The notes under the pieces were generated by a model. That model saw only the letters and a list, made by a program, of their open reading frames with translations, made no database searches and was not told where the DNA came from. Shown in pieces: positions 5,438 through 20,542 of a stretch of DNA of 43,233 bases. The number at the start of each line of letters is the position of its first letter. Position 1 is the stretch's first letter. The stretch is from Candidatus Baltobacteraceae bacterium (GTDB taxonomy: Bacteria; Vulcanimicrobiota; Vulcanimicrobiia; Vulcanimicrobiales; Vulcanimicrobiaceae): NCBI GenBank assembly GCA_035502855.1, contig DATJTX010000035.1, positions 1 through 43,233 on the forward strand, read 5' to 3'. A program made the translations under genes and the position numbers.

Positions 5438-6660
5438 GCCGCATCGTCCTCGCTTACTCCGGCGGTCTCGACACGTCGGTCCTCCTCAAGAAGTTGATCC
5501 TCGCCGGGAACGAGGTCGTCGCGATGACCGCGGATCTGGGTGAGTCGGACGGCGTCGCCGGCGCCGGCGCCGCCGCCGAACTCGAAAAGGTGCGCAAGAA
5601 AGCGCTCGCGCTGGGCGCGTACGACGCGGTGGTGATCGACGCGCGCGAGCGCTTCGTGAGCAACTACGTGCAGCCGGCGCTGGCGGCGAACGCGATGTAC
5701 GAAGGCGTCTACCCGCTCTCGGCCGCGCTCTCGCGGCCGTTGATCGGCGCGCTGCTGGTCGAAGTCGCGCATCAATTCAGTGCCGACGCGGTCGCGCACG
5801 GCTGTACCGGCAAGGGCAACGACCAGGTGCGCATCGAGCTGGCGGTGCGCGCGCTCGATCCGGCGCTGACGGTGCGCGCGCCGCTGCGAGAATCGCCGCT
5901 CTCGCGTCCCGACGCGATCGTGTTCGCGGCCGAACACGGCATTCCGATCGCGCACTCGGCGGCGAAACCATATTCGGTCGACGCCAATCTGTGGGGCCGC
6001 TCGATCGAAGCGGGCGTGCTCGAAGACCCGTGGACGGCGCCGCCCGAGGACGCATACGCGTGGACCGCGTCGGCCGCCGTTCAACCGGCGAAGCCCGACG
6101 AGATCGTCCTGCACTTCGACGACGGCGTGCCCGCGTTGGATGACACGCGCGGTGCGGCGCTGATCGCCAAGCTCAATGCGCTCGCCGGCGTGCACGGCAT
6201 CGGGCGCATCGATTTGGTCGAGGACCGGGTGATCGGTGTCAAGTCGCGCGAAGTTTACGAGGCGCCGGCGGCGACCGTGCTGCTGGCGGCGCACAAGGCG
6301 CTCGAGCGGCTGGTGCTCACGCGCGACGAGCTGCGGTTCAAGGCGAGCTGCGATCAGAAATACGCGGAGCTGGTCTACGACGGCTTGTGGATGTCGCCGC
6401 TGCGCGATGCGCTCGATGCTTTCAACGGCTCGTTCGCGGCGCGCGTAACCGGCGACGTACGCCTGTCGCTCTATCATGGCACCGTCACGACGGCGGGTGT
6501 GCGCTCGCCGTTCGCGCTCTACAACGAGTCGCTCGCGACCTACGGTGCAGGTGACACGTTCGACCATCGCGCCGCCGACGGGTTCATTCGCGTGTATGGG
6601 TTACCGCTGGATCAGTTGGCTGCGGTTCGGTCCCTCGACTCCGTTGCGCGGAGTCTGTGA
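5434..6660 (+). CDS. argG: Argininosuccinate synthase
   Basis: Condenses citrulline and aspartate with ATP. The 408-residue protein has the PP-loop AYSGGLDTS at residues 7-15, the citrulline/aspartate region GCTGKGNDQVRIE and the tetramerisation C-terminal domain, close to the usual length of about 400. It starts at a GTG overlapping the argR stop. Its last ten residues (RSLDSVARSL) are encoded by a copy of the dispersed repeat, which also provides the argG stop and the argH start, so the natural C terminus may have been replaced. Confidence 0.96.
   Translation: MSRIVLAYSGGLDTSVLLKKLILAGNEVVAMTADLGESDGVAGAGAAAELEKVRKKALALGAYDAVVIDARERFVSNYVQPALAANAMYEGVYPLSAALSRPLIGALLVEVAHQFSADAVAHGCTGKGNDQVRIELAVRALDPALTVRAPLRESPLSRPDAIVFAAEHGIPIAHSAAKPYSVDANLWGRSIEAGVLEDPWTAPPEDAYAWTASAAVQPAKPDEIVLHFDDGVPALDDTRGAALIAKLNALAGVHGIGRIDLVEDRVIGVKSREVYEAPAATVLLAAHKALERLVLTRDELRFKASCDQKYAELVYDGLWMSPLRDALDAFNGSFAARVTGDVRLSLYHGTVTTAGVRSPFALYNESLATYGAGDTFDHRAADGFIRVYGLPLDQLAAVRSLDSVARSL
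6630..6657. repeat. Partial REP-like repeat at the argG/argH junction
   Basis: CCCTCGACTCCG-TTGC-GCGGAGTCTGT matches the first half of the repeat at 3013-3083 (CCCTCGACTCCG-CGTA-GCGGAGCCTGT) with an intact CTCCG/CGGAG hairpin. It is read through as argG coding sequence and ends in the GTGA overlap. Confidence 0.7.
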
Positions 6661-8051
6661 CACATTTGCAGTGGGGCGGCAGGTTCGGCGCCGCGCCCGA
6701 TCCGGCGCTGCTCGCCTTCGGCTCGTCGCTGGAAGACGATCTCGTGCTCGCGCCGTTCGACGTGCAAACCTCGCAGGCGCACGTCGATGCGCTCGCGGGC
6801 GGCGGCATCATCGATCCCGCGGCGGCAGCCGCGCTGCACGGTGCGCTCGATGGCGTCGCAGCCGAGATCGAGAACGGAAGCTTCGATGCGTACGCGCGTG
6901 CGAGCGGCGCCGAGGACGTGCACGGTGCGATCGATGCGCGCGTGCGCGAGCTGCGCCCGCAGGCCGGTGCGCTCTTGCACGCCGGGCGCAGCCGTAACGA
7001 TCAGGTCGCAACCACGCTCGCGCTCTACGCGCACGACCGCGCGCGGGCGGGCGCGCGGCGCACGCAGTCGATCGCGCGGCATCTGCTCGCGCGCGCCGTG
7101 GAAGAACTCAACGCGCAGACGCTGCTCGCGGCGACGACGCACATGCAGCCGGCACAGCCGGTGCTGCTGGCCTTCTGGCTTCAGACGGCCGCCGAACCGT
7201 TCGTTCGCGACGCAAAACGTTTCGCGCGCGTGGCCGATTCGGCACTGCATTCGTGTCCGCTCGGCTCGGGGGCGGTGTCGGGCTCGACCCTTCCGCTCGA
7301 TCGCGAGGCGGCGTGCCGGCGCTTGGGATTCGAACGGCCCTCGCGCAATGCGATGGACGCGATCGGTACGCGTGAGAGCGCGCTCGACGTCGCGCACGCG
7401 TGCGCGCTTGCGCTCGTCAACGCTTCCCGCGTGAGCGCGGAGATCGTCGTGTGGGCGATGCCGGCGTTCGGGTACGTTCGCCTGGGCGACGCCAGTTCGA
7501 CCGGCTCGAGCCTGATGCCGCAGAAGCGCAATCCCGACGTCTTCGAATTGGTGCGCGGCAGCGCGAGCGAGATTACCGGAGCGTATTTCGGTGCGCTCGC
7601 TTCGACCATCGGGTTGCCGCTTTCCTATCATCGCGATCTGCAGGAGACCAAACGCCTGACGATCGCGGTTTGCGAACGCGCGCTCGCGGCGCTCGACGCG
7701 TTCGAGCGGGCGCTGCGCGACACGAACTTCGTGCGGGCGAACCTGAACGCGCGCGCCGGCGAGGGATACACGGTTGCGACCGACATCGCGGATGCGCTGA
7801 TTCAATCCGGTACGAGTGCGCGCGACGCGCACGCGTTCGTCGGCGCTGCGGTTCGCGCGGCGGAAGAAGCAGGGCGCGCGCTCGACGAGCGCGACCTCGA
7901 CGCGCTCGCTCGAGAAGCCGGCCTTAAGAATCTTCACGCGCCGTTAACGCCGCAGGCGAGCGTGGCGGCGAAAATGACGAGCGGATCCACCTCGCCGGGT
8001 GCGGTGCGCGCGGGTCTTGCTTCGCTCGCCGCGGAATTGGATCAGATATGA
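6657..8051 (+). CDS. argH: Argininosuccinate lyase
   Basis: Splits argininosuccinate into arginine and fumarate, the last step. The 464-residue protein shows WGGRF near the N terminus, the DVHGAIDARV and HAGRSRNDQVATT segments and the superfamily signature GSSLMPQKRNPD containing the catalytic Ser loop. The length is normal. It starts at a GTG overlapping the argG stop, and its TGA overlaps the ATG of argC. The upstream SD is replaced by repeat sequence, so translation probably depends on coupling. Confidence 0.96.
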   Translation: MTHLQWGGRFGAAPDPALLAFGSSLEDDLVLAPFDVQTSQAHVDALAGGGIIDPAAAAALHGALDGVAAEIENGSFDAYARASGAEDVHGAIDARVRELRPQAGALLHAGRSRNDQVATTLALYAHDRARAGARRTQSIARHLLARAVEELNAQTLLAATTHMQPAQPVLLAFWLQTAAEPFVRDAKRFARVADSALHSCPLGSGAVSGSTLPLDREAACRRLGFERPSRNAMDAIGTRESALDVAHACALALVNASRVSAEIVVWAMPAFGYVRLGDASSTGSSLMPQKRNPDVFELVRGSASEITGAYFGALASTIGLPLSYHRDLQETKRLTIAVCERALAALDAFERALRDTNFVRANLNARAGEGYTVATDIADALIQSGTSARDAHAFVGAAVRAAEEAGRALDERDLDALAREAGLKNLHAPLTPQASVAAKMTSGSTSPGAVRAGLASLAAELDQI

Positions 8052-9019
8052 CGCGTGTGCACGTGTGGGGCGCCAGCGGCTACGCGGCGGGCGAAGCGAT
8101 TCGATTGCTCGATCGGCACCCGTTCTTCGACGTGGGCGTGCTCGAAAGCCGCAGTCACGCGGGCGCCGCGCTCGCCGATCATTTTCCGCTCTTGCGCACG
8201 AGTGCGTACGTCTTTTCACCGGCGGGATCGGTTGCGTCGGCGCTGCAGGCCGGTGACGTGGTGATCGCCGCCGGCGGGCATGGGGAGGCGCAGACGCACG
8301 TCCCGGCGTTTCTCGACGCGGGCGCGCGCGTGGTCGATCTCTCGGCCGATTATCGCTTCGACGATCGCGCGGCGTACGGCTTGTGCGAATGGAACCGCGA
8401 AGTGATTGCGAGCGCGCCGTTGGTTGCCAACCCGGGCTGTTATCCGACGGCGAGTCTGCTCGGGCTGCTTCCGCTTCTGCAGCTCGCGACGCCGCTACAG
8501 CTCATCGTCGATGCAAAGAGCGGTATCACCGGCGCGGGGCGCAATCCGTCGGTCGGCTCGCTCTACGCCGAAGTTGCCGGCGATATTCGCGCCTACGGCA
8601 TCGCGGGGCACCGGCATCAACCCGAGATCGAACGGTTCTTGCGCGTTCACGGCAGTGCCGCGCCGTTGCTTTTCACGCCGCACGTCGTTCCGCTCGCGCG
8701 CGGGATGCTCGCCGATTCGTACGCAGTCTTCGACCGCGTGCTCGATGAAGGCGCGGTGCGCGCCGCGTTTGCGAAAGCGTACGTGAGCAGCCCGTTTGTA
8801 CGCATGCTCGAGGGCGAGCGCATCCCGAGCGTGGCCGCGGTGAACGGCACGAACGATGCGGAGCTGCGCGTCGACGTGGTCGGAAACACCGTGCGCGTGC
8901 TGTGCGCGATCGATAATCTCGGCAAAGGCGCAGCGGGTCAAGCCGTACAGAATCTCAACCTCATGCTGGGCTATCCCGAGGAGACCGGATTGCATGCTCG
9001 CGCCATTGTTGCAGGATGA
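8048..9019 (+). CDS. argC: N-acetyl-gamma-glutamyl-phosphate reductase
   Basis: Reduces acetylglutamyl phosphate to the semialdehyde with NADPH. The 323-residue protein begins with a dinucleotide loop VWGASGYAAGEAIRLL (G-A-S-G-Y-A) and has the active-site cysteine at about residue 131 in NPGCYPTAS, then KSGITGAGRNPS and the GHRHQPEI histidine segment. The start overlaps the argH stop (ATGA) and the end overlaps argJ by 26 bp. Confidence 0.96.
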   Translation: MTRVHVWGASGYAAGEAIRLLDRHPFFDVGVLESRSHAGAALADHFPLLRTSAYVFSPAGSVASALQAGDVVIAAGGHGEAQTHVPAFLDAGARVVDLSADYRFDDRAAYGLCEWNREVIASAPLVANPGCYPTASLLGLLPLLQLATPLQLIVDAKSGITGAGRNPSVGSLYAEVAGDIRAYGIAGHRHQPEIERFLRVHGSAAPLLFTPHVVPLARGMLADSYAVFDRVLDEGAVRAAFAKAYVSSPFVRMLEGERIPSVAAVNGTNDAELRVDVVGNTVRVLCAIDNLGKGAAGQAVQNLNLMLGYPEETGLHARAIVAG

Positions 9020-10217
9020 CGACGTCCGCCTCGTAGCCGTACGCGGCGGCATCGGCGCGGTGCCCGGCGTGCGTCTCGCCGGCGTGCACGCCGGCATCAA
9101 ACCGCGCAAGCGCGATCTCGCGCTGATCGTTTTCGATGTGCCGCAGGCCTGTGCGTCCGTCATCACGACCAACGAGATCAAGGCTGCGCCGCTGCTGGTG
9201 AGCGCCGAACACATCGGGCAATCGGGCGGCGCGATGCGCGCCGTCGTGTGCAATTCGGGCTGCGCCAACGCGTGCACGGGCGAGCGCGGCGAGCGCGATA
9301 GCCGCGCGACCGCGCGGCAGACCGGCGCGCTGCTGAAGATTCCGATGACGAGCATCGTGATCGCCTCCACCGGCGTGATCGGCGTGCCGCTGCCGATGGA
9401 TCGCGTGCAGCGCGGCCTCGAGCGCGCGATCGCCCAGCTCGAGAGCGGGATGAAGTCAAGCAACGACGCGGCAGAGGCGATTCTGACCACCGATCGCGTG
9501 CCGAAACTCGCAGCCTACGAGTTCTACGTCGGCGGGAAGAAATATACCGTCGGCGGGATCGCCAAAGGATCGGGGATGATCGCTCCCAACATGGCGACGA
9601 TGCTCGCCTTCGTGGCGACCAATCTGCCGATGAGCCGAGAGGCGCTGCAGCGGGAACTGCGCGAAGCGTGCGATGCGAGCTTCAACATGATTTCGGTTGA
9701 CGGCTGCATGTCGACCAACGACGCGGCCTATGCGTTCGCGCCCGCCGGCAAACAGGCACCGCCGGCGCCGTTTTCGCGCGCACTGCGCCAGGTTTGTTTG
9801 GACCTGGCGCTGGCGATGGTGGCCGACGGCGAGGGCGCGACCAAGACGCTCACCCTCCACGTGACCGGCGCGAAGGACGTCGCGCAAGCGCGCGCGATCG
9901 GGCGAGCCGCGATCAACAGCAATTTAGTTCGCACCGCGCTGTACGGTGAGGATCCGAACTGGGGACGCATCATCGCTGCGGCTGGTTCGGTCAACGCGGG
10001 ACTCGATCCCGAGAAATGGTCGCTCTTGCTCAACGGCAAGACCTGGGTGCAGGTCGGCGCGATCGAAGCGCTCAGCGAAGCCGAGGCGCATCACGAACTG
10101 GAGATCACCGATATCGTGGTGGAATTGCGTTTGGGGCTGGGCGACGCGGCCGCCACCGCCTGGGGGTGCGACCTGTCAAAGGACTATGTCCGCATCAACG
10201 CAAGTTACCGCACATAG
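8994..10217 (+). CDS. argJ: Bifunctional ornithine acetyltransferase/N-acetylglutamate synthase
   Basis: Recycles the acetyl group from acetylornithine to glutamate and, in the bifunctional forms, also makes acetylglutamate from acetyl-CoA. ATG 8994 gives 407 residues. The autocleavage nucleophile is Thr202 in NMATMLAF, preceded by the KGSGMIAPN loop; CNSGCANACTG and ASTGVIGVPLPM form the rest of the active site. Family proteins self-cleave into alpha and beta chains before this Thr. Its presence explains why the cluster needs no separate argA or argE. It overlaps argC by 26 bp, and argD starts 2 nt after it. Confidence 0.96.
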   Translation: MLAPLLQDDDVRLVAVRGGIGAVPGVRLAGVHAGIKPRKRDLALIVFDVPQACASVITTNEIKAAPLLVSAEHIGQSGGAMRAVVCNSGCANACTGERGERDSRATARQTGALLKIPMTSIVIASTGVIGVPLPMDRVQRGLERAIAQLESGMKSSNDAAEAILTTDRVPKLAAYEFYVGGKKYTVGGIAKGSGMIAPNMATMLAFVATNLPMSREALQRELREACDASFNMISVDGCMSTNDAAYAFAPAGKQAPPAPFSRALRQVCLDLALAMVADGEGATKTLTLHVTGAKDVAQARAIGRAAINSNLVRTALYGEDPNWGRIIAAAGSVNAGLDPEKWSLLLNGKTWVQVGAIEALSEAEAHHELEITDIVVELRLGLGDAAATAWGCDLSKDYVRINASYRT

Positions 10218-10219
10218 CC

Positions 10220-11419
10220 ATGGATGCTCTTTTAGGTAATTATAATCGGGCGCCGGTGACGTTCGTGCGCGGCGAGGGCTGCTATCTCTTCGACGATCAG
10301 GGGCGGCGCTATCTCGATTTCATCGCCGGTATTGCGGTGTGTGCGCTCGGTCACAGCCATCCGTGGATCGCACAGGCGGTTTCGGAGCAAGCGCGCACGC
10401 TCGTTCACGTGAGCAATCTCTACTATCAGGAGCCGGCCGGCACTCTCGCGCGCGAATTGGTCGATCGCAGCGGCCTCGCGCGCGTGTTCTTCTGCAATTC
10501 GGGCACCGAAGCGAACGAAGCCGCGATCAAGCTCGCGCGCAAACGGGCGTTCCGTCGCGACGAGAAGGATCGCATGACGATCCTGGCCTGCACGGGATCG
10601 TTTCACGGGCGTACGTACGGCGCGCTGGCCGCTACCGACAACGCGAAGTATCAAGAGGGTTTCGGACCGATGCCGGCGGGCTTCGCGTTCACGCCGTTCA
10701 ACGACGTCGCCGCGCTCGAGAAGAATTTGGACGAGCGCGTCGCCGCGTTCATCGTCGAGCCGGTGCAGGGAGAGAGCGGCGTCCACCCGGCGACGCCGGA
10801 ATTTTTGGCTGCGGCGCGGCGGCTGTGCGATGCGCGCGGCGCGCTGCTGATCTTCGATGAGATTCAGTGCGGCATGGGACGGCTCGGACCGCTCTTCGCC
10901 TTCCAGCGCTTCGAAGTCACACCCGACGTGGTGACGATGGCGAAGGCGCTCGCGAACGGTTTACCCATCGGCGCGATGCTGGTGGCGGAGTGCGCGGCCG
11001 ACGCGCTGCGTCCGGGCGATCACGGTTCGACGTTCGGCGGCTCGCCGATTCCGTGCGCGGCGGCGCTGGCGCATCTGCGCGTGCGCGATGCGATCGATCT
11101 CGCTTCGTACGTCGCGGTGCGCGAGGTACAGCTGATGGCGCGCCTGACCGATCTCGCGCTGGCGTTTCCCAACGCGATCGACGGGATGCGCGGAATAGGG
11201 CTTTTGGCCGCGCTGCAGTTGAAAGAGAAATATCCGGTTGGCGACGTCGTGACCGCGCTGCGCGAAGCCGGCGTGCTGGTCGGAAGCGCGGGCGGGAACT
11301 CACTGCGCTTCGCACCGCCGCTGGTGATCGGCGAAGAGGGCATCGACGAGGCCTACGACGCGCTCTACGACGTGCTCGCGAAGCTGGACGAACGCAAAGA
11401 ACCGATCTTGGCAGGCTGA
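10220..11419 (+). CDS. argD: Acetylornithine aminotransferase
   Basis: A class III PLP-dependent aminotransferase converting N-acetylglutamate semialdehyde to acetylornithine. The 399-residue protein shows CNSGTEANEAAIKLAR, FHGRTYGALAAT, the FDEIQCGMGR cofactor aspartate and the PLP lysine at about residue 242 in TMAKALANGLPIGAM, followed by HGSTFGG. It is the last gene of the arginine operon. No clear terminator hairpin follows before the first riboswitch 115 bp later, so read-through into the fluoride region cannot be excluded. Confidence 0.95.
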   Translation: MDALLGNYNRAPVTFVRGEGCYLFDDQGRRYLDFIAGIAVCALGHSHPWIAQAVSEQARTLVHVSNLYYQEPAGTLARELVDRSGLARVFFCNSGTEANEAAIKLARKRAFRRDEKDRMTILACTGSFHGRTYGALAATDNAKYQEGFGPMPAGFAFTPFNDVAALEKNLDERVAAFIVEPVQGESGVHPATPEFLAAARRLCDARGALLIFDEIQCGMGRLGPLFAFQRFEVTPDVVTMAKALANGLPIGAMLVAECAADALRPGDHGSTFGGSPIPCAAALAHLRVRDAIDLASYVAVREVQLMARLTDLALAFPNAIDGMRGIGLLAALQLKEKYPVGDVVTALREAGVLVGSAGGNSLRFAPPLVIGEEGIDEAYDALYDVLAKLDERKEPILAG

Positions 11420-11533
11420 GCCTTGGGGTACATGTAGTTTGGCCTGCTCACGCGGCTGCAAATAGCTACTCACGCTTGTGGCAGAATGCGGATAGATAGG
11501 AACGATCTCGTAATTCGGCTAAAGCGTAATCCA

Positions 11534-11617
11534 GCGGGATGGAGCTTCCGTCTAACCGCCGAAAACGGCTAATGGCTCCTATCAAGATGAGCACCGTAGT
11601 CTTGACAGGAGTTTTTT
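11534..11617 (+). promoter_or_regulatory. Fluoride (crcB-motif) riboswitch 1
   Basis: The aptamer (11534-11580) reads GGGATGGAGC..CCGTCTAACCGCC-GAAAA-CGGCTAATGGCTCCT. It has the GATG and ATGG-CTCC blocks, the GCCG/CGGC hairpin and the GGAGC/GCTCC P1 stem of crcB-motif RNAs; usual CTGATGG is CTAATGG here. The 3' strand CTCCT (11576-11580) can instead pair in a hairpin, CTCCTATCAAGA (11576-11587) with TCTTGACAGGAG (11600-11611), followed by six T: an intrinsic terminator. AGGAG in its 3' arm is also the ribosome-binding site of the gene at 11619. Fluoride binding should hold CTCCT in P1 and turn the gene on. Confidence 0.9.
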
Positions 11618-11618
11618 C

Positions 11619-11930
11619 ATGCGCAAGGCTTCATCGCGGTCCAAGATCGAGCATCCGAGACGGTCGGCCGTCGTCGCGGCCGTGCTCAGGCTGCTCCTCA
11701 CATTGTCCGGAATGGGCTGCGCGATTGTGTTTAAAGAAGGTTTCGTCGCCATCGTTTCGGTGCTCGCATCGTATTTAATCCCCGTCGGCGGCTATCGCGT
11801 TCTGCGGGTGCAGGCCGTTGCGCTGGCCGCTATGGGCGCCTACGTATATACCGCGGTATCGCACGGCAGCGGAGAAGTCTTTTTCATCGTGGGCGCCGGA
11901 TTATGTCTTGGCGCGATGGCGCAACGTTGA
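11619..11930 (+). CDS. Fluoride-riboswitch-controlled small membrane protein
   Basis: A 103-residue basic-start protein with three likely membrane helices (about residues 18-38, 42-58 and 63-100, the last possibly two short helices). The start ATG lies 7 nt after AGGAG, which is part of the riboswitch hairpin. It does not look like CrcB/Fluc, which has about 125 residues, four helices and conserved Asn and Phe-box residues, and it is far too short for CLC-F. The family is not recognised. Control by a fluoride riboswitch makes a role in fluoride export or membrane protection a reasonable inference, without proof. Confidence 0.8.
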   Translation: MRKASSRSKIEHPRRSAVVAAVLRLLLTLSGMGCAIVFKEGFVAIVSVLASYLIPVGGYRVLRVQAVALAAMGAYVYTAVSHGSGEVFFIVGAGLCLGAMAQR

Positions 11931-12019
11931 GCGTTCACTGAATCGATTGCGCGCGCCTTGGATCACCGGTGCAGGGCATGCGAAGGGCGCAGCGGTCGTC
12001 AGTAAGAACACGCTACCAA

Positions 12020-12098
12020 CGGGGATGGAGCACCCCCTCGAACCGCCAATAATCGGCTGATGGCTCCTGGCCGGATCCGCTAAGCCAGGAGCTTTTTT
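12020..12098 (+). promoter_or_regulatory. Fluoride (crcB-motif) riboswitch 2
   Basis: The aptamer (12020-12068) has GGGGATGGAGC..CCCC, then AACC-GCC-AATAATC-GGC-TGATGGCTCCT: the canonical CTGATGGCTCC block, the GGGG/CCCC pairing and the GGAGC/GCTCC P1 stem. The competing hairpin is CTCCTGGC (12064-12071) with GCCAGGAG (12084-12091), followed by C and six T, directly before the ATG at 12099. As in copy 1 the terminator's 3' arm carries the AGGAG ribosome-binding site. This is the closest of the three to the consensus. Confidence 0.93.
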
Positions 12099-12749
12099 AT
12101 GTCACAACGCTCGCCGATGGGCGATCTTTTCGACGACCTTTGTCACGCCGAGGAAGCGGCGCGTGAACGGCTCCTCGCGGGCTGCGCGGATGACGCGATA
12201 AAGATCGAGCGCTACTTTAACCGCCCGCTGGAAATCGCCAAACGCAGTGCTCGCAATACCATGGCCGGCATGGGATTCTTGGAGGATGTGGATCTCGCGG
12301 CGGGCCTGCGCCGGGAGGCGTTCGAGCGTATCGGAACAGTCTGCGCCGATTCCATCTGCTCGAAGGCCGCGTTGCGCGTGCGCGCGCGGTTCCGCATTTA
12401 CGCGGATGAGATTGCCAACGCCGAAGATCGCATCGCTGACGCCATTGCCGCGTCGCGTCTTGTTCACGTAGAGCGCATCTTTCCGCGCATGTTCTCGATT
12501 GGATGGATTGACTTCGACAATCTGCATATCCCTGATCCTCCGGGCGACGATGCCGCCATCGACGATTGGATCGAGCATCTGCGCCGCGCCGTCGGCGAAG
12601 AACTTGCCGCGAGTACGAAGCGTGCAGTCGGCGAGGTGCTCGAACAGGGATATGCTCGGCTCGGCGTGATCAAGTCGTGCATCGATGCCACGCTCCGAGC
12701 TCTACGTCGCACGGCGCAAGCGGAAATCTCCCACGTGGGACAGGTATGA
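12099..12749 (+). CDS. Fluoride-riboswitch-controlled protein of unknown function
   Basis: A 216-residue, soluble-looking, strongly alpha-helical protein with no signal peptide or membrane segment. It is rich in Ala, Arg, Asp and Glu, and its four cysteines are scattered (no metal-site spacing). A central segment IFPRMFSIGWIDFDNLHIPDPPGDD separates an N-terminal helical half from a C-terminal helical hairpin (EELAASTKRAVGEVLEQGYARLGVIKSCIDATLRALRR). I do not recognise the family. The start is fixed by riboswitch 2, whose hairpin ends at this ATG. The last codon overlaps a possible 24-codon ORF. Confidence 0.8.
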   Translation: MSQRSPMGDLFDDLCHAEEAARERLLAGCADDAIKIERYFNRPLEIAKRSARNTMAGMGFLEDVDLAAGLRREAFERIGTVCADSICSKAALRVRARFRIYADEIANAEDRIADAIAASRLVHVERIFPRMFSIGWIDFDNLHIPDPPGDDAAIDDWIEHLRRAVGEELAASTKRAVGEVLEQGYARLGVIKSCIDATLRALRRTAQAEISHVGQV

Positions 12750-12820: not shown

Positions 12821-12830
12821 AGGGGCTATT

Positions 12831-12923
12831 CGGGCGGTGGAGTTCGCCCGTGACGTACGTGTCGCAAACTGCCGTAGGGCCGATGACTCCTGACAATCAC
12901 GCGTATCGTATTGTCAGGAGCAT
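12831..12923 (+). promoter_or_regulatory. Fluoride (crcB-motif) riboswitch 3, translational type
   Basis: The aptamer begins at 12831 with GGGCGGTGGAGTTCGCCC, has an extra 16-nt segment, then AAACT-GCC-GTAG-GGC-CGATGACTCCT. The P1 stem is GGAGT/ACTCC where copies 1 and 2 have GGAGC/GCTCC, a compensatory change. GATG is GGTG here. The competing hairpin is a perfect CTCCTGACAAT (12887-12897) with ATTGTCAGGAG (12910-12920); no T-run follows. Its 3' arm contains AGGAG, the ribosome-binding site for the TTG start at 12924. Control is therefore more likely at translation initiation, for the first gene of the Hyf-like operon. Confidence 0.87.
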
Positions 12924-13883
12924 TTGTTGATCTTACACCCGATAGCGGTGCAGGCGGCCCAGGTATTGACTCTCCTGCTGCTCTCACCGCTGCTCACGGG
13001 ATGTATCGCGCGCGCCGAAGCCGTCATTGCCGGCAAGCGTGGCCCGTCGATTTTCCAGACGTACCGCGACATCCTGAAGTTTTTTCGGAAGCAACCGCTT
13101 ACACCGGAGCCCTCGTCGTGGGTTTTCCGAACGGCCCCGTATGTGGCGTGTGCGTGCTATGCGACGATCGCAACGCTGATCCCGGTCCTCACCACGTACC
13201 CGTTGCCCGGCGCCACCTTCGGCGACATTCTCGGCGGCGCGTTCCTCTTCGCTCTCGCGGGTTTCGCAACGGCGCTTGCCGGAATCGACTCGGGTTCGGA
13301 ATACGCGCAGATCGGCAGCAGCCGTGCGACGATGGTCGGCATCCTCGTCGAGCCTACGCTGATCTTCGTATTTTTCTCGGTTGCCTTTATCACAGGAACC
13401 GATCTGCCGTACGCGATGAACGCCGCGCTTCGCGACTCCGCGGCCAACGTGCTTCGCCCAGCGCACGTGCTCGCGACCGCGGCCTTTTTCATGATGATGC
13501 TAGTGGATACCGGACGCATACCGATCGAAAGTTCGTCAGCGACCATCGAATTCGGCATGATCGACGATGCGCGCACGTTTGAGCATTCCGGCCCGTGGAT
13601 GGCCCTCTTCAAGTGGAGCTCGTCCATGAAGCAATTTTTGCTCTATACAATTTTCGTCAACGTGTTGCTGTTGCCGATGGGTTTATCGTCAAGCGGTAGC
13701 GTCGGGTCAGTAGCGCTCGCGGTTGTGACGCTCTTCGGAAAGATGCTGATCGTCGGCGCGGTTGTGGCTGCTATCGAGACGACGTTCGCGAAATTGCGCT
13801 TGTACAAGATTACCGAATTCATCGCAACCGGTCTGCTCATCGCCATCCTGGCGGTCTTCGCCTATGCGGTGGGGTTCGGATGA
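12924..13883 (+). CDS. hyfC: HyfC/NuoH-like membrane subunit
   Basis: A 319-residue, roughly eight-helix protein of the HyfC/HycD/NuoH family, which anchors the peripheral arm of hydrogenase-4-type complexes and complex I. Family hallmarks are GKRGPSIFQTYRDILKFFRK, IGSSRATMVGILVEP, DTGRIPIESSSATIEFGMID and FEHSGPWMALFKWSSSMKQ. Two acidic positions usually seen in HyfC are changed: GSSRE is GSSRA, and ALxEW is ALFKW. The start is TTG at 12924 (12927 possible), 4-7 nt after the riboswitch hairpin's AGGAG. It is the first gene of a run in which each stop overlaps the next start. Confidence 0.88.
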   Translation: MLILHPIAVQAAQVLTLLLLSPLLTGCIARAEAVIAGKRGPSIFQTYRDILKFFRKQPLTPEPSSWVFRTAPYVACACYATIATLIPVLTTYPLPGATFGDILGGAFLFALAGFATALAGIDSGSEYAQIGSSRATMVGILVEPTLIFVFFSVAFITGTDLPYAMNAALRDSAANVLRPAHVLATAAFFMMMLVDTGRIPIESSSATIEFGMIDDARTFEHSGPWMALFKWSSSMKQFLLYTIFVNVLLLPMGLSSSGSVGSVALAVVTLFGKMLIVGAVVAAIETTFAKLRLYKITEFIATGLLIAILAVFAYAVGFG

Positions 13884-14551
13884 CGCTTCATCAACTCACT
13901 GTTCCTGAGGCGTTCGCCGGGACGATCGCGATGCTGCTGCTCGTCGTGCAACTCACGCTGTTCCGTTCCGTCGTGATCTCCGAGTTCATCCGAGTGTACG
14001 CTATCCAGGCTTGGCTCGTTGCCGCGATTTGCCTGGGGGTCGGCGTTACCGAGGGTGGCTGGGACCTCGTCGCCCTGGCTATGCTGACGCTGCTGTTCAA
14101 AGGCATCCTTTTGCCACGATACATGCAGCGGCTCGCTCGCGGTATCTCGGCGCGCATCGAGCTGCCGGCGCGTATAAACGTGCGGATTTCGTTGCTCATT
14201 GCCGGGGTGCTTATCGGCGTTTCGATCCTTACGTCGATTCAACTGCCGTTGCATCAAGGCGCTTTCTTACCCAAAGCGGATCTTGCAACCGCGCTATCGA
14301 TGGTTTTCATCGGTTTTCTCGTCGCGATTCTCCGACCAAATGCACTCGCGCAGGTCGTCGCGTTTCTCACACTGGAGGATGGTCTGTTCTTCGGAACCAT
14401 CACGCTCGCACCGGGGCTCCCGTTTATCATCGGTATCCTTCTCTTGATCGATGTGCTCGTTGCGGTGGTCGTATTCGCCGTTTTGGTCCGGGCCTTGGTC
14501 GGGCAGCGAGCCGCCGCCTCCGTGCACGTCTTCGAAACGCTCCGCGGATGA
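13880..14551 (+). CDS. hyfE: HyfE-like membrane subunit
   Basis: A 223-residue protein with about six to seven membrane helices, matching HyfE: an N-terminal NuoK-like part with FRSVVISEFIRVYAIQAWLVA, a basic loop RYMQRLARGISARIELPARINV, and the typical NALAQVVAFLTLEDGLFF segment near residue 165. HyfE sits between the HyfC anchor and antiporter-like subunits in the membrane arm. It starts at the ATGA overlap with the preceding gene and overlaps the next in the same way. Confidence 0.87.
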   Translation: MTLHQLTVPEAFAGTIAMLLLVVQLTLFRSVVISEFIRVYAIQAWLVAAICLGVGVTEGGWDLVALAMLTLLFKGILLPRYMQRLARGISARIELPARINVRISLLIAGVLIGVSILTSIQLPLHQGAFLPKADLATALSMVFIGFLVAILRPNALAQVVAFLTLEDGLFFGTITLAPGLPFIIGILLLIDVLVAVVVFAVLVRALVGQRAAASVHVFETLRG

Positions 14552-15993
14552 ACGCCCTACCGACGGCGATCATCGCCATTCCCGTTGCGGCCGTCATTTT
14601 TTCGCTCGTCCTACCGTCTCGGGTAGGCCGCGTGGTGACCGGCATCGCCGGCGTCGCGACCGCGGCCTGCATTGGTGCCGTCGTCTTTCTCACCGCGAAC
14701 GAAAACTCGCACATCGATGCGCTCTCCGCGCTTTTTCTAATCCCGGTTGGAATCGTCTACGGGGCGGTCGGTATCTACAGCACGTGGTACGTTCGTGCAG
14801 AATCCATTGGAGCGGACGGTGACGAACGCTACCGACGCGAATTCCTCGCGTTGACCAACGCCTTCGCTTGCGCGGAAGCGCTGGTGCCGCTCTTGACGAA
14901 CATGGCCGGGCTCTGGGTGACGCTCGAGGTGACGACGATCGTCGCCGCGCTTTTGGTTCGTTTGCAGGGTACGGACGCGTCGCTCGAAGCCGCGTGGAAG
15001 TACATTCTCATCGCTTCATGCGGCTTGGCCGTTGGTTTGATCGGCGTGGTCGTTCTCTACGCCTCGGGTACGAGCGTACTGGGTTCATACTACACACCCG
15101 ATTGGGCGAACTACATGTCCGTCGCCACGAAGCTAGACGTCGACGCGGTGCGTCTTGCGTTCCTGCTCGCGCTGATTGGATTCGGAACAAAGATGGGCCT
15201 TGCTCCGATGCACACCTGGCTGCCGGACGCACACGGCGCCGGCCCGACGCCGACCAGCGCAATGCTTTCGGGCGTGCTGCTTTCCGACGCGCTCTATATC
15301 ATCACCCGCTTCGCGTCGATCACGAACGCCGCTATCGGCCCCGGCATGACGCGACATCTCTTTTTTATCGTCGGACTGCTCTCGCTCTTCGTCGGCGCCT
15401 TCTTCCTCCTATATCAACGCGATATTAAGCGTATGCTCGCCTATTCGAGCATCGAGCACATGGGCATCGTGGCGTGCGGCCTCGCATTCGGAGCGCGTAT
15501 TGCGGTCATCGGGGCGCTGCTGCACGTCGTCAATCACGCGGCGACCAAAGCGCTCGCGTTCTTGGGCGCCGGGCGCCTCGCTGCGCGCTTCGAAACGCGC
15601 GATATCGCAGGTATCACCGGCGGCGTCGCCGTGCTCCCGATCTCCGGCACGCTGTTCGCGCTCGCGGGACTGGCACTCGCCGGCATGCCGCCCTTTGGTG
15701 TCTTTCGCAGCGAGTTGATGATTCTGAGCGGAGGATTCGGCGGCAGCACATGGCCGATCGCCGCAATCGTGCTCGGCCTACTATTGGTTGCGTTCGCCGG
15801 ACTTGTTCGCTGGACGACCGGTGTGACGGCAGGTATGCCGCCGGGGGGTGTGCGTCGCGGTGAGCGAGATATCGGTGCTATTGCGTCGATGCTGCTGGCG
15901 TTTGCCGTCGTCCTCGGTCTCGGTCTCTATGTACCAGCTCATCTCGGAGTTCTGCTCGATCGTGCAGGCGATATCGTCGGAGGTCATCCATGA
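14548..15993 (+). CDS. hyfF: HyfF-like antiporter-type membrane subunit
   Basis: A 481-residue, about 14-helix protein of the NuoL/M/N-MrpA/D superfamily, closest to HyfF. It keeps the TM5 glutamate (E127 in WVTLEVTTIVAALLV), AAWKYILIASCG, the LAPMHTWLPDAHG loop, YQRDIKRMLAYSSIEHMG and the helix-12 lysine HAATKALAFLGAG. These residues form the half-channels for proton translocation in the family. The TM8 position where related proteins often carry Lys reads GVLLSDALY. ATG 14548 overlaps the hyfE stop. The membrane path thus looks largely intact although the peripheral arm has lost its cofactor ligands. Confidence 0.88.
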   Translation: MNALPTAIIAIPVAAVIFSLVLPSRVGRVVTGIAGVATAACIGAVVFLTANENSHIDALSALFLIPVGIVYGAVGIYSTWYVRAESIGADGDERYRREFLALTNAFACAEALVPLLTNMAGLWVTLEVTTIVAALLVRLQGTDASLEAAWKYILIASCGLAVGLIGVVVLYASGTSVLGSYYTPDWANYMSVATKLDVDAVRLAFLLALIGFGTKMGLAPMHTWLPDAHGAGPTPTSAMLSGVLLSDALYIITRFASITNAAIGPGMTRHLFFIVGLLSLFVGAFFLLYQRDIKRMLAYSSIEHMGIVACGLAFGARIAVIGALLHVVNHAATKALAFLGAGRLAARFETRDIAGITGGVAVLPISGTLFALAGLALAGMPPFGVFRSELMILSGGFGGSTWPIAAIVLGLLLVAFAGLVRWTTGVTAGMPPGGVRRGERDIGAIASMLLAFAVVLGLGLYVPAHLGVLLDRAGDIVGGHP

Positions 15994-17381
15994 GCGGACC
16001 GATCGCACACAGCAGCATACAAACCGCGACGGAGCGACGTGTCCAAGAAGGTGCGCGCCTGGCATGGATCTTTGGCGACCGCGTCGGTTCGGACGTGGTA
16101 CTCCACTACGTCGTGGATCGCGATGGTAAACTGCATGACGAATCGTCAGCGGTATACGATTCCGTCCGTTCGATCAGCGGTCAAGTGCCTGCCGCCGATT
16201 GGTACGAGCGGGAAATCGCGGAGCGCTTCGGCGTCCGCTTCCAGGGCCTAACCGAAAACCGGCCGTTAGTGAAGGTAGTTCCTGCGGAACTTCTGATGCG
16301 GGTCGAGTCCCCCGAGGTGTCGACGGTATTATACGGACCGGTACGATCCGGCATCGTTGAGTCGGTCCGATGGATCGTGGAGACCGCGGGCGAGGACTTC
16401 ATCGACGTCTACCCGTCGATGTTCTTCAAACATCGCGGGCTCGAGGAGCGCTTCATTGGCGCACCGATCGAACTCGCACCGTTCGTGGCGGAGCATGCTT
16501 CCGGCGCGACGGCGTCGAGTCACGCGGCCGCGTTCGCCTGCGCAGCCGAAAGCGCGATGGGAATTGAGGTGCCGAGCCGCGCTCGTGCTACGCGAGCCGT
16601 CTTGGTAGAACTCGAGCGCGCCCACCAGCACCTCGATTCACTCGCCAAACTCGCCGAAGACGGCTCGTTGGCGGTCGGTTCCGCGCAGGTCTTTGCGGCG
16701 AAGGAACGCGTGCATCGGATCCTCTGCGACGCGACCGGCAACCGCTTTGCACGCGGGGTGATTTGCGTCGGTGGAACGCGCTTCGACGTGCTCGAGCGCC
16801 TGCGCGAGACCTGCGCACGAGACCTCGACGTCGCGGAGAATCACGCACGTACTGCGGTCGACCGGCTGATCAATACCCAGTCGTTCATGGACCGCCTCAT
16901 CGGCACCGGAAGGCTTTCGCGCGAGCTCGTGGTGCGGCATGGCGGGGTCGGCCCTGTTGCACGTGGCAGCGGCGTCCCGTGCGACGTACGTACGCTCGAT
17001 GGGTACCTATTCACTCCGCTCGCCGGCGAGGAAGCCTTGGAGGACAATGGCGACGCAGCGTCGCGGGCACTGGTACGCGTTGCCGAGCTTCAACGCTCGT
17101 ACCAACTCGTGCGTAACGCACTCGACGCCGATCCGGGTGGTCCTTACGCCGTTCCCGTGGAGCTGCGCGACGGCAGTGCCATCGCGCGCATCGAGTCGCC
17201 TCAGGGGGAGTTGCTCTACTTCGTGCGTATCTCGGACGGCGCGCTTGCGCGCGTGGCGGTCCGATCGGCGTCCTATGCGAATTGGCCGCTTTTCGTGCCA
17301 TCGCTTCCGGGAAACATCTTTACGGACTTCTCGTTCATCGAGCATTCCTTCGCTTCGTCACAGTCGGAAGTGGACCGATGA
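15990..17381 (+). CDS. NuoC-NuoD/HyfG-like large subunit without NiFe ligands
   Basis: A 463-residue fusion of a NuoC-like N-terminal domain (WYEREIAERFGVRFQG, about residues 68-85) and a NuoD/hydrogenase-large-subunit-like domain. In HycE/HyfG the first metal motif is E-R-x-C-G-x-C-x-x-x-H-S; here the aligned segment is EHASGATASSH (residues 168-178), so both cysteines are Ser171 and Thr174. The neighbouring AAFACAAESAMGIEVP and LVELERAHQHLDSLA confirm the alignment. The C terminus ends FSFIEHSFASSQSEVDR, with no DPCxxC motif, resembling the complex I-like ending GEVDR. It cannot bind a NiFe centre. This loss is known in Ehr complexes and complex I. Confidence 0.88.
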   Translation: MSGPIAHSSIQTATERRVQEGARLAWIFGDRVGSDVVLHYVVDRDGKLHDESSAVYDSVRSISGQVPAADWYEREIAERFGVRFQGLTENRPLVKVVPAELLMRVESPEVSTVLYGPVRSGIVESVRWIVETAGEDFIDVYPSMFFKHRGLEERFIGAPIELAPFVAEHASGATASSHAAAFACAAESAMGIEVPSRARATRAVLVELERAHQHLDSLAKLAEDGSLAVGSAQVFAAKERVHRILCDATGNRFARGVICVGGTRFDVLERLRETCARDLDVAENHARTAVDRLINTQSFMDRLIGTGRLSRELVVRHGGVGPVARGSGVPCDVRTLDGYLFTPLAGEEALEDNGDAASRALVRVAELQRSYQLVRNALDADPGGPYAVPVELRDGSAIARIESPQGELLYFVRISDGALARVAVRSASYANWPLFVPSLPGNIFTDFSFIEHSFASSQSEVDR

Positions 17382-18118
17382 GCTGGATCGGATACGGGTT
17401 GCGGCGGGGCGTATTGACGACGCGTTATCCACTAGGCGATGATACGATGCCGCCGGATTATCGGGGTGAAATCGAGACGCTGCAGGTTGGCCGCGAAGAG
17501 GCCGCCGCGGCGGCAGCAGGATGCCTGTCCAACGCCATTTCCGCCGACGAAAGGCCGCGGGTAGATGGACTGCGCTGCTTCCAATGCGGACAATGCACGC
17601 GTGTAGCGCCGCGCGCGTTCGTCGCGCGTAGCCATTTCGAACTCGCGCGGCTGGCGGAGCCGGCGGACCAGACGTTCCGCAGTCTCCGCGATCGCGCTCG
17701 CGCGTTCGGCCGCTCGGTGCACCTTCGACACGTCGACGCGGGAAGCGACGGATCCGAGGAACAGGAGTTGGCGGCCATCTTCAATCCGTTCTACGATGCC
17801 AATCGCCTCGGTATTTTCCTCACGGCGACGCCGCGCCACGCGGACGTGCTAATCGTGAGCGGCGTCGTGACCAAAGCGATGGCCGATCCGCTGCGGCGCA
17901 CATACGAAGCAATGCCGGACCCGAAGGTCGTCGTGGCGTTAGGTACCAGCGCCTGCTCCGGCGGCATCTTCGCAGATTCTCCACACGTCGTCGGGCCGGT
18001 CAGCACTCTGCTTCCGGTCGACGTGCTCATTCCGGGAGCGCCGCCCTCACCGCTGACGATTCTGCACGGCCTGTGGGTTGCGCTCGGGCACATGCTTGCG
18101 CGGGATGCGGCGTCATGA
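17378..18118 (+). CDS. HyfH-HyfI fusion (NuoI+NuoB-like) with ablated Fe-S sites
   Basis: A 246-residue protein. Residues 8-85 match HyfH/HycF: LRRGVLTTRYPLG, then a degenerate first ferredoxin motif (R39, A42, A45, C49, followed by SNAI) and a second one with C67, C70, C73 but Ala77 for the last Cys. Residues 115-240 match HyfI/NuoB: GSCNGCDIE of the family is GSDGSEEQE (Asp124, Glu127), GTC is GTS (Ser191, with Cys193 nearby), and PGCPP is PGAPP (Ala221). All four proximal [4Fe-4S] ligands are gone. Framework sequence (HADVLIVSGVVTKAM, PKVVVALGT, LPVDVLIPG) is well kept, so this is a maintained protein and no decaying pseudogene. Confidence 0.87.
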   Translation: MSWIGYGLRRGVLTTRYPLGDDTMPPDYRGEIETLQVGREEAAAAAAGCLSNAISADERPRVDGLRCFQCGQCTRVAPRAFVARSHFELARLAEPADQTFRSLRDRARAFGRSVHLRHVDAGSDGSEEQELAAIFNPFYDANRLGIFLTATPRHADVLIVSGVVTKAMADPLRRTYEAMPDPKVVVALGTSACSGGIFADSPHVVGPVSTLLPVDVLIPGAPPSPLTILHGLWVALGHMLARDAAS

Positions 18119-20094
18119 TGACATTGCTGGTTGCACTCGCGCTTTGTGCCCTCGGAACGCTATTCTCAGTCATCGTGCCGTCCGCATTCGGACGTCTTTG
18201 CGGCTTTTTGCTAATGGGTGCGGCCGGCGTCGCCGCGGTGCTCGCATCGCTTCAAGGTTTGAGCGCAGGAACGCAATCGATCGGCTTCGCGGCTGCACAA
18301 ACCCACCTATTGCTCAGGCTGGATCCAACGAGTGCCTTCTTCGTGGGCGTACTCGGCGTCGTCGCAATGCTCGTCTCGCTCTACGGTTTGGGTCCGCGTA
18401 CGACCGACGAGCGCCGCACCGGTCGTGCCGCATCCGCGACCGCGTGCGCAATCCTCTTCGCCTCCATCCTCGCCTGCGTCGCTGACGACGTGTTGCTCTT
18501 CATCTTTGCATGGGAACTGCTGGCCCTCACCTTCTACTGGGCTATCGCCTACTCGGGCACAGACCCAAAATCTCCGAAGGCGGCGTACGTGACCATCGTT
18601 GTGACCCACATCGCGGGCGCGTGCATCGTCGCTTCGCTACTGTTCCTCGCGCACGTTGCAGGCAGTTTCGAAGTGGAAGCGGTCGTTGCAGCGGGCGCAC
18701 GCACCACCGGCGTCGCGGCCGGAGTGCTTCTAATGCTGCTGCTGGTCGGCTTCGGCGCCAAGTTCGGGATGTTGCCGATGCAGGTATGGATGCCCTATGG
18801 CTATCGCTCGGCGCCGTCGGTCGTCGCGGCGCTGATGGCCGGCGGAGCGCTTAATGTCGGGTTCTACGGCGTCACGCGATTCATCGTCGGGTTTCCCGAC
18901 GCGCCTCTCTGGCTCGGCATCGTCGCCATCGGCGTAGGAGCGATCACCGCGTTCTTTGGTATTGCGTGGGCATCTTCACGGCGTGACATGCGCCGGCTTG
19001 CTGCGTACTCGAGCGTTGAAAACGGCGGCATTATCCTCGCCGCATTCGGCGTCGCGATCGCCGGCGGTGCGTTGCACGACCGCATGCTGGTCGGCTTCGC
19101 GATCGCTGCGGCGTTGGTACAGATCGCCGCGCATGCCGCCGCCAAGACGACGCTCTTCCTTTCGATCGCCTCGATCGGTGACGCGTGCTCCACGCTCAGC
19201 TTCGATGCACTCGGCGGCCTCTCGCGCCGCTTGCCGGTCGTATCGGTCGTTGTTCTCATTTGCGGCATGTCGCTCGCCGCGCTCCCGCCGCTTGCCGGAT
19301 TCGTCGGGGAGTGGCTGGTACTCGAATCGCTCATGCAGGCGTTCCGCACCGGAAACGTCACAAGCGAAGTCGCATTCGCGCTCGGAGGCGCCGTCATCGG
19401 CGTGGCGGCGGGCATTGCAGTTGTGACGTTCACGAAGTTCGTCGGCATCGGCGTCCTGGGCGCCGATCGTGCCGAACGAGTGCCATCGCATGGCGCGAAA
19501 TCCCCGTGGCGCCATGCCGGATTGGTCATCGGCGCCGCATGCGTCATCTGCATCGGCGTATTCGCGATCTCGTTGCTCCGATTGGTCGCGCCCTCGATCG
19601 ACGGGATCGCGGAGGTGCCGGCGACGCAGGCGATGATAGGTTCGTTTCCACTCGTGCAGCCGACGTTCGCGGGCTTCTCGTCCATATCACCTAGCGGACT
19701 CTGCATCGTGCTCTGCGGCTTCACCCTGATGTTCTGGATCATCGCTCGTTTGATCTCTCGTCCGCGCGGACGATACGCCTCGACCTGGACGTCGGGTGAG
19801 CCATACCGCCCGTGGACGCAGTACACCGGCACGGGTTACGCGAATCCGACCCGCGTGATTCTCGACGCCGCGGTGCGGACCGTACGGGACACGCAGGCGT
19901 CGGCGCGCGGATACGCGAGCGAAATACGCCCGTTCTTCGACCTACGGTTTTACGAGGTGCTGGCGAAGCCGTTTATCGCCGTCGGCGCATTGGTGCGAAC
20001 CACGCAATCCGGCGTTATCGCCGCGTATCTTTCGTACATCCTCGTCTTCACCATCCTCATGTTGGTGCTGTTTCCTTCCATCCGGCATTGGTAG
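18115..20094 (+). CDS. hyfB: HyfB-like antiporter-type membrane subunit
   Basis: A 659-residue protein, similar in size to E. coli HyfB, with about 16 membrane helices. Antiporter-superfamily motifs: FAWELLALTFYW (TM5 Glu), GFGAKFGMLPMQVWMPYGY (TM7 Lys), SSRRDMRRLAAYSSVENGG and HAAAKTTLFLSIAS (helix-12 Lys). The TM8 region MAGGALNVGFYG carries Asn where HyfB/NuoM usually have Lys, and WLPYAH is WMPYGY. The C terminus has the HyfB-type amphipathic tail (STWTSGEPYRPWTQYTGTGYANP...IRPFFDLRFYEVLAKPF). The start overlaps the preceding gene. The HyfA iron-sulfur protein and formate dehydrogenase gene of true formate hydrogenlyase operons are absent. Confidence 0.88.
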   Translation: MMTLLVALALCALGTLFSVIVPSAFGRLCGFLLMGAAGVAAVLASLQGLSAGTQSIGFAAAQTHLLLRLDPTSAFFVGVLGVVAMLVSLYGLGPRTTDERRTGRAASATACAILFASILACVADDVLLFIFAWELLALTFYWAIAYSGTDPKSPKAAYVTIVVTHIAGACIVASLLFLAHVAGSFEVEAVVAAGARTTGVAAGVLLMLLLVGFGAKFGMLPMQVWMPYGYRSAPSVVAALMAGGALNVGFYGVTRFIVGFPDAPLWLGIVAIGVGAITAFFGIAWASSRRDMRRLAAYSSVENGGIILAAFGVAIAGGALHDRMLVGFAIAAALVQIAAHAAAKTTLFLSIASIGDACSTLSFDALGGLSRRLPVVSVVVLICGMSLAALPPLAGFVGEWLVLESLMQAFRTGNVTSEVAFALGGAVIGVAAGIAVVTFTKFVGIGVLGADRAERVPSHGAKSPWRHAGLVIGAACVICIGVFAISLLRLVAPSIDGIAEVPATQAMIGSFPLVQPTFAGFSSISPSGLCIVLCGFTLMFWIIARLISRPRGRYASTWTSGEPYRPWTQYTGTGYANPTRVILDAAVRTVRDTQASARGYASEIRPFFDLRFYEVLAKPFIAVGALVRTTQSGVIAAYLSYILVFTILMLVLFPSIRHW

Positions 20095-20101
20095 GTGTCA
20101 T

Positions 20102-20542
20102 ATGTTCTCTCACATCATCATCGCTTGGGACGGATCCGATCACGCAAGGCGCGCATTCGAATACGGGGTCGGCATCTCCGAAAAGTTCGGAGCGCGATTG
20201 CAACTGGTCTCGGTTGCGCGTCACACCGAGCACGCGGAGACGCAAGACGAAAGGCAAGACTCCCGAAGAAAAGCACGACACTTCTACGAAGCGGCCGCCG
20301 CCGAGCTCATCGAGTCCGGAAAGAGACGCGGAGTCAAGGCGGAGTTGCTGATCGTCGAGGGCGGTCACCCGGCCGAAGCGATCGTGGATACGGCGCGCAA
20401 AGTCGGCGCTGACCTCATCATCGTTGGCCGGCGCGGACTCTCGGGCATGACGCGATTTCTGATGGGAAGCATCTCCGATCGCATCGCCCGTTACGCCCAC
20501 TGCCCGGTACTCGTAATCGATGGGTTTGCGACGCCGCCCTAA
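20102..20542 (+). CDS. Universal stress protein (UspA family)
   Basis: A 146-residue single-domain Usp. It begins FSHIIIAWDGSDHARRAFEYGVGIS and has the nucleotide-binding signature GRRGLSGMTRFLMGSIS (G-2x-G-9x-G-S), then ARYAHCPVLVI. Members with this motif bind ATP or AMP. It starts 7 nt after the hyfB-like stop with no promoter space, so it belongs to the fluoride-regulated operon. UspA genes have been noted elsewhere among genes behind crcB-motif RNAs, which supports the operon assignment. Confidence 0.93.
   Translation: MFSHIIIAWDGSDHARRAFEYGVGISEKFGARLQLVSVARHTEHAETQDERQDSRRKARHFYEAAAAELIESGKRRGVKAELLIVEGGHPAEAIVDTARKVGADLIIVGRRGLSGMTRFLMGSISDRIARYAHCPVLVIDGFATPP

Follow-up and report, generated by a model that had tools for sequence, protein, structure and literature searches.

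Here we describe a Hyf-like operon under a fluoride riboswitch in the genome of Candidatus Baltobacteraceae bacterium; the relatives that have names are bins of Candidatus Eremiobacterota (Vulcanimicrobiota). The operon lies in a 43,233-nucleotide stretch of DNA, hereafter the window (contig DATJTX010000035.1, positions 1 to 43,233). Judging from its sequence, we consider it probable that the operon encodes a fluoride-induced, ion-translocating complex of the complex I/group-4 hydrogenase superfamily that is neither a hydrogenase nor a formate hydrogenlyase (FHL) and protects pH or the proton-motive force. The genes run in the order hyfC-E-F-large-small-B (12924 to about 20094), followed by a universal stress gene, and are joined by stop/start overlaps; the riboswitches and genes given here between 11526 and 20542 are on the + strand. 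Directly upstream is a fluoride (crcB-motif) riboswitch aptamer (12824..12899; Rfam RF01734, 35.7 bits against a gathering threshold of 34), which puts the operon in the RF01734 regulon. Our own model R1, whose training set includes this aptamer, scores it at 44.1 bits.

The aptamer is followed by an expression platform, in which the hairpin CUCCUGACAAU/AUUGUCAGGAG (12886..12923; minimum free energy -19.4 kcal/mol, z -4.3) buries an AGGAG ribosome site (12916-12920) located 5' of the TTG start. By the known logic of fluoride riboswitches, we infer that this platform, the third of a tandem series, acts as a translational ON-switch. The original prediction, made from the letters of the DNA, had named a crcB-motif RNA ahead of six HyfC-E-F-large-small-HyfB genes with stop/start overlaps, and the Rfam match, open reading frames and family matches agree with this. 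It counted one riboswitch, which is real, and overlooked two stronger ones upstream (11526-11588 and 12012-12076).

The large subunit lacks a NiFe site

The HycE/HyfG-like large subunit (15990..17381; 30-kDa and 49-kDa domains, PF00346 E 3e-32) has E. coli formate hydrogenlyase (PDB 7z0s) as its best PDB match. When aligned with E. coli HycE and other solved relatives, the position of the first NiFe CxxC motif reads S171-G-A-T174, and the C-terminus (...SFASSQSEVDR) has no second CxxC and nothing beyond the terminal Arg, which we take, from what is known of HycE and HycI, to be the hydrogenase-precursor cleavage site. The alignment bears out the predicted Ser171 and Thr174 in place of the first cysteine pair, as well as the missing C-terminal motif, and the two CxxC motifs of group 4 [NiFe] hydrogenases are absent from both the window and the whole clade described below. 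HypD is required for building NiFe sites, and it had no match in the source genome (96.6% complete; controls were positive and other Hyp genes were not searched). Of 35 genomes that carry the complex, 17 likewise have no HypD, and one of these, that of Acidithiobacillus sp. YTS05, is a complete chromosome. Genes for HyfA/HycB and formate dehydrogenase were missing, as predicted, from the operon and the flanking window genes sampled, the rest of the genome not having been searched. As the NiFe CxxC motifs are absent and the genome lacks HypD, we rejected a true hydrogenase, in agreement with the original prediction.

Homologues of NuoH, NuoK, the antiporter subunits, NuoC/D and NuoB in a single operon place the complex in the complex I superfamily. 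It lacks the features of complex I itself: the loop of the quinone-ligand His reads GPVRSG, and the quinone-binding His and Tyr of NuoD (the Tyr position judged by eye) and cluster N2 are not present.

The small subunit has lost the proximal cluster and kept a ferredoxin-type set

The HycF-HycG-like fused small subunit (17378..18118; PF01058 E 9e-24) is predicted to have a HycG/NuoB-like fold (AlphaFold mean predicted local distance difference test score 91.7; top PDB match HycG 7z0s_G, E 1.7e-14). Alignments place D124, E127, S191 and A221 at the four proximal [4Fe-4S] cysteine positions, the same residues that had been predicted. Its N-terminal part is a HycF-like ferredoxin domain with C49, C67, C70 and C73. 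By comparison with eight-cysteine relatives in Acidithiobacillus and Burkholderia, C49 is the fourth cysteine of the first ferredoxin motif, and C67, C70 and C73 are cysteines one to three of the second. In ferredoxins with two clusters, cysteines at these positions hold a single cluster, which in complex I is the closest to the proximal cluster, and the set found here fits one ferredoxin-type [4Fe-4S] cluster, for which it would be enough. All 42 aligned sequences have the four cysteines, whether the proximal cluster is present or not, and for this reason we rejected a cofactor-free window complex. The original description of the complex as stripped of its redox cofactors is not supported as it stands, given this invariant peripheral set and a proximal cluster that 47 of 49 clade members outside the window's branch keep; the suggestion of a complex without any redox activity goes too far for the window because of the invariance of the N-terminal cysteines.

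The membrane arm retains its ion-path residues

Membrane subunits make up the remainder of the complex: a HyfC/HycD/NuoH-like subunit (12924..13883, with its TTG start at 12924 or 12927; PF00146 E 1.8e-30), a HyfE-like subunit (13880..14551; NF008556 E 3e-15), and two antiporter subunits, HyfF-like (14548..15993; PF00361 E 6.5e-51) and HyfB-like (about 18118..20094; PF00361 E 2e-43). Conservation across the clade supports the prediction that they keep their channel glutamates and most lysines. HyfE E166 is kept in 65 of 65 members, and HyfF K215, E303 and K334 in 74/74, 73/73 and 73/73, respectively. HyfF E127 and E389, HyfC E143, E209, E220 and K236, and HyfB E133, K215, E301, K343 and E398 are likewise invariant or nearly so. 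Nearly all of these residues are also present in archaeal relatives, and they are the same in forms with and without the proximal Fe-S cluster.

A clade of fluoride-linked complexes

A scan of 84,980 genomes, from which the 80 best relatives were retained, showed both CxxC motifs to be absent in all 80. A tree of 154 large subunits, with branch support from the Shimodaira-Hasegawa-like approximate likelihood ratio test (SH-aLRT), contains four groups, each forming one side of a branch: the fluoride-linked forms (81 rows, SH-aLRT 99), other Ehr-like forms (31 rows, 95), an archaeal/Dehalococcoidia group (21 rows, 100), and forms with an intact NiFe site (21 rows, 94). The fluoride clade comprises about 80 large subunits, none with NiFe cysteines, and spans ten phyla or more; its hosts include Eremiobacterota, Actinomycetota, Acidithiobacillus, Burkholderia, Alphaproteobacteria, Thermodesulfobacteriota, Myxococcota, Acidobacteriota, Nitrospirota, Planctomycetota, Lentisphaerota, Chloroflexota, and Bacillota.

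A same-strand fluoride riboswitch lies within 540 nt of hyfC in 61 of the 63 fluoride-clade operons with a visible 5' end, the exceptions being L065 and a second operon in L080. L057, in which hyfC is frame-broken and an aptamer lies 74 nt upstream, is not a true exception, and L147, L148 and L149 were rejected as riboswitch-less loci once searched. No such riboswitch was found upstream in the archaeal relatives (0 of 17) or in other Hyf/Ehr operons (0 of 26, about 20 of which have an intact NiFe site). R1 was trained partly on these loci, and several hyfC-proximal aptamers of Eremiobacterota were found with R1 only, below the Rfam cut-off; of 16 loci that were not in the R1 training set, 15 have their upstream aptamer confirmed by Rfam's own model (counting L110, a close relative of L046, which was in the set). 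Among the matches listed from 198 Thermodesulfobacteriota genomes, the large subunits adjoining a riboswitch (G172, G181, G249, and G277) all fall in the fluoride clade. Genes linked to fluoride also occur near clade loci, namely DUF190 (19/77), MutS-like (21/77), CrcB (9/77), enolase (7/77) and pyrophosphatase (3/77) genes, versus none near 47 control loci except one MutS-like gene. Universal stress protein (Usp) genes were found near 14 of 77 clade loci and 0 of 47 controls. At the level of sequence, the predicted fluoride-riboswitch control is upheld by this linkage. The wider expectation that cysteine-less forms always sit behind crcB-motif RNAs fails in one direction, as the cysteine-free archaeal clade has no riboswitch (0/17).

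Repeated loss of the proximal cluster

The four-cysteine proximal set is lost in 26 of 26 members of the branch that contains the window, made up of Eremiobacterota and Actinomycetota. Here site 1 is Asp in 24 of 26, site 2 is Glu or Asp in 22 and Cys in 4, and site 3 is mostly Asp or Ser; outside this branch, all four cysteines are kept in 47 of 49 clade members. At the same four sites the archaeal group reads Asp, Thr, Asp and Asn, with Asp at site 1 in 21 of 21. The tree requires three losses of the proximal cluster, in the Eremiobacterota and Actinomycetota branch, in the archaeal clade and in a Meiothermus operon. As these changes are forced by well supported branches, we rejected a single origin of the Fe-S loss (no approximately unbiased test was made); by the tree, the losses are independent and the Cys-to-Asp changes convergent. 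That Asp recurs suggests a new use of the former cluster site, perhaps in binding a metal ion or in conducting protons.

In the archaeal operons, the core of the small subunit holds one or two cysteines; no ferredoxin motif was found near these operons (21 of 21), nor any Fe-S motif in or near them. From their sequences, these relatives appear to be cofactor-free, with no redox centre at all. The group consists of six-gene Hyf-like operons of archaea and Dehalococcoidia (L108, L116, L126, and 18 others) that apparently have neither an Fe-S nor a NiFe ligand set and no riboswitch. The Meiothermus operon (L049; Allomeiothermus silvanus plasmid pMESIL01, 2960-10135) is an independent case of loss of both the NiFe and the proximal Fe-S ligands (GNTGLDDTE, PGSPARP). 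Lacking a riboswitch and grouping with other Ehr forms, it was rejected as a member of the fluoride clade. In the small subunits of L118 and L148 only the fourth proximal cysteine is replaced (Asn and Ser, respectively), and a single Cys remains at site 2 in L061, L063, L067 and L075; these six loci are possible intermediates in a stepwise loss of the cluster.

Comparison with known complexes

Ehr complexes are Hyf- and complex I-like, lack NiFe ligands and are of unknown function (PMC4378227, PMC10284858, PMC6349859). The window complex shares with those of Sulfobacillus, Nitrospira and Margulisbacteria its Hyf/complex I-like subunits and a large subunit without NiFe CxxC motifs, and in this broad sense it is an Ehr complex. 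It does not have the NuoB-like proximal [4Fe-4S] ligands that go with such complexes, reading D/E/S/A at the four sites, so that the window's branch differs from Ehr in having lost the proximal [4Fe-4S] site as well. Compared with the fluoride clade, the Ehr-type forms are a separate clade with GDTT.../NLSYCGHD-like motifs and no riboswitch in the loci examined, a difference drawn from the 31 sampled rows and not from the published Sulfobacillus Ehr.

E. coli formate hydrogenlyase HycCDEFG (7z0s) gives the best PDB match of the large subunit and, with HycG, the top fold match of the small subunit. Unlike it, the window complex has no NiFe site, proximal cluster, HycB/FdhF or C-terminal peptide, and it has one ferredoxin cluster instead of two, together with two antiporter subunits. 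Mrp-type multisubunit cation/proton antiporters, which serve as our working model, have homologous antiporter subunits but lack the NuoD/NuoB-like peripheral subunits of the window complex. The archaeal/Dehalococcoidia six-subunit complex (e.g., L116 of Methanosarcina sp.) resembles it in having no NiFe site, no proximal Fe-S cluster and Asp at the same position, and differs in having no riboswitch and no ferredoxin-like domain and in forming a separate clade.

Among the commonest genes of fluoride riboswitches are those annotated as ‘formate hydrogenlyase’, which has been explained by formate metabolism (PMC11139923, PMC8752731), and Na+/H+ antiporters are the second most common class (PMC11139923). 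The ‘formate hydrogen lyase’ of this regulon (Baker et al. 2012, as cited in PMC11139923) has the same genetic association as the window operon. Its name implies formate oxidation, but none of the members sampled here could hold a NiFe site. Our searches found no literature linking Ehr or hydrogenase-4 to fluoride, although most subscription papers, including Marreiros et al. 2013, were outside their reach. It is apparently new that the fluoride-linked forms make up a single clade lacking NiFe ligands, tied to Ehr-type complexes, and that a branch of it has lost the proximal cluster too; the archaeal Fe-S-free form also appears to be new, and priority is not certain for any of these.

Neighbouring genes and a second fluoride island

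Three fluoride riboswitches stand in tandem at 11526, 12012 and 12824, with one gene behind each. The two upstream aptamers, at 11526..11588 (43.2 bits) and 12012..12076 (44 bits), lead into terminator hairpins with U6, in contrast to the hidden AGGAG site of the one at 12824. The first precedes a gene for a small hydrophobic protein of 103 aa (11619..11930) that matched no family and had no homologue among the clade loci searched. The second precedes a gene for an all-helical protein of 216 aa (12099..12749) with no Pfam, NCBIfam or PDB match and no significant match in a fold search. Relatives of the 216-aa protein occur in 13 of 148 genomes of the phylum, and several share a fluoride island with the Hyf-like operon. 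The last gene of the operon encodes Usp (20102..20542; PF00582 E 2e-32), with a ratio of nonsynonymous to synonymous substitution rates (dN/dS) of 0.07, and this gene order ending in Usp is common to the window operon and its two nearest relatives. Directly 5' of the fluoride genes, at 5434-11419, are arginine biosynthesis genes (argininosuccinate synthase and lyase, a semialdehyde dehydrogenase and an ArgD-like aminotransferase).

The whole genome has seven fluoride riboswitches, four of them on another contig next to a second Hyf-like operon that keeps its proximal Fe-S cysteines and has lost those for NiFe. This second island (G000 C21, 85018-100622; L008 and L009) has DUF190, NUDIX and a MutS-like pair near its riboswitches, and it also holds a paralogue of the 216-aa protein.

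Function of the complex and alternative explanations

Hydrogen fluoride (HF) passes through membranes and dissociates in the cell into H+ and F-; with F- leaving via channels, the result is a proton leak. Because HF entry combined with F- efflux amounts to such a leak, an Mrp-like complex would fit what a cell needs under fluoride. We propose that HF entering the cell would lead the riboswitch to permit translation of the operon, and that the complex would move H+ against cations, in the manner of Mrp, via HyfB, HyfF, HyfC and HyfE. This exchange would defend cytoplasmic pH and membrane potential against the load imposed by the leak. In the window's branch electrons probably no longer pass through the peripheral arm to an active site; the arm may serve as a structural or gating module in which carboxylates replace the cluster, and the single remaining cluster may be a structural or redox-sensing element. 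Ion transport and the absence of a redox drive are inferred, and the ion and the direction of its transport are guesses. More tentatively, and with less than even confidence, we suggest a complex I-type machine that would transport ions without electron transfer through its core, the NiFe site having been lost at the base of the tree and the proximal cluster at least three times, with carboxylates taking its place. One branch would serve fluoride defence, and an archaeal sister type is apparently without a redox centre.

Three observations weigh against the proposed fluoride-induced ion-translocating complex. The invariance of C49, C67, C70 and C73 despite the loss of the proximal cluster suggests a role in electron transfer or sensing. 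The proximal cluster is kept by most of the clade, whose ancestral function may therefore have been redox-coupled. Finally, the lysines of transmembrane helix 8 known from the antiporter subunits of complex I are not conserved here, as read from the sequences. The first of these is the main argument for an Ehr-like redox-driven pump, in which ferredoxin or another donor would feed the N-terminal [4Fe-4S] cluster and electron flow to an acceptor would drive ion pumping, and the proximal cluster of the 47 other members speaks for it as well. We regard such a pump as unlikely, though worth serious consideration: the proximal site is gone throughout the window's branch, where the acceptor would need to sit near the remaining cluster; the operon includes no ferredoxin or dehydrogenase partner gene; and GPVRSG replaces the quinone-ligand loop of complex I.

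The location of the operon in fluoride islands, near CrcB in nine loci, could instead mean that the complex directly powers or performs fluoride export, by F-/H+ or F-/cation exchange. We find this improbable, since CrcB, which co-occurs in those loci, is the known exporter and the conserved channel residues are those of H+/cation paths; to our knowledge, no member of the superfamily moves anions. It is more doubtful still that the operon is a decaying relic of a hydrogenase operon in one genome, for which the lost catalytic cysteines would speak. Against the nearest relative, dN/dS is 0.04 for HyfC, 0.08 for the large subunit, and 0.18 for both the small subunit and HyfB, and against the second relative it is 0.05-0.12 where computable, all rough values as synonymous sites are near saturation. 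These ratios, indicative of purifying selection, together with the absence of both CxxC motifs in all 80 best relatives, rule out decay of a single copy; the frames are intact, the riboswitch is kept, and the same residues are lost across phyla. Intact homologues of the same operon type, which the original prediction had said would mark this copy as decayed, were not found, as no clade member has the NiFe cysteines. Least credible of all is an ordinary hydrogenase-4 or FHL serving fermentative metabolism under fluoride stress, as in reviews (PMC11139923, PMC8752731), which subunit homology and naming favour and which the lack of NiFe ligands in every member, of HypD in the genome and of formate dehydrogenase in the operon leaves next to no room for.

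Because the data indicate that every sampled ‘formate hydrogen lyase’ of the fluoride riboswitches belongs to a monophyletic complex that cannot be a NiFe hydrogenase, the question of how bacteria survive fluoride shifts from formate metabolism towards pH and ion homeostasis. The clade and its relatives also offer natural relatives of complex I in which the electron path was lost stepwise and the ion path kept, a direct handle on how the two are coupled.
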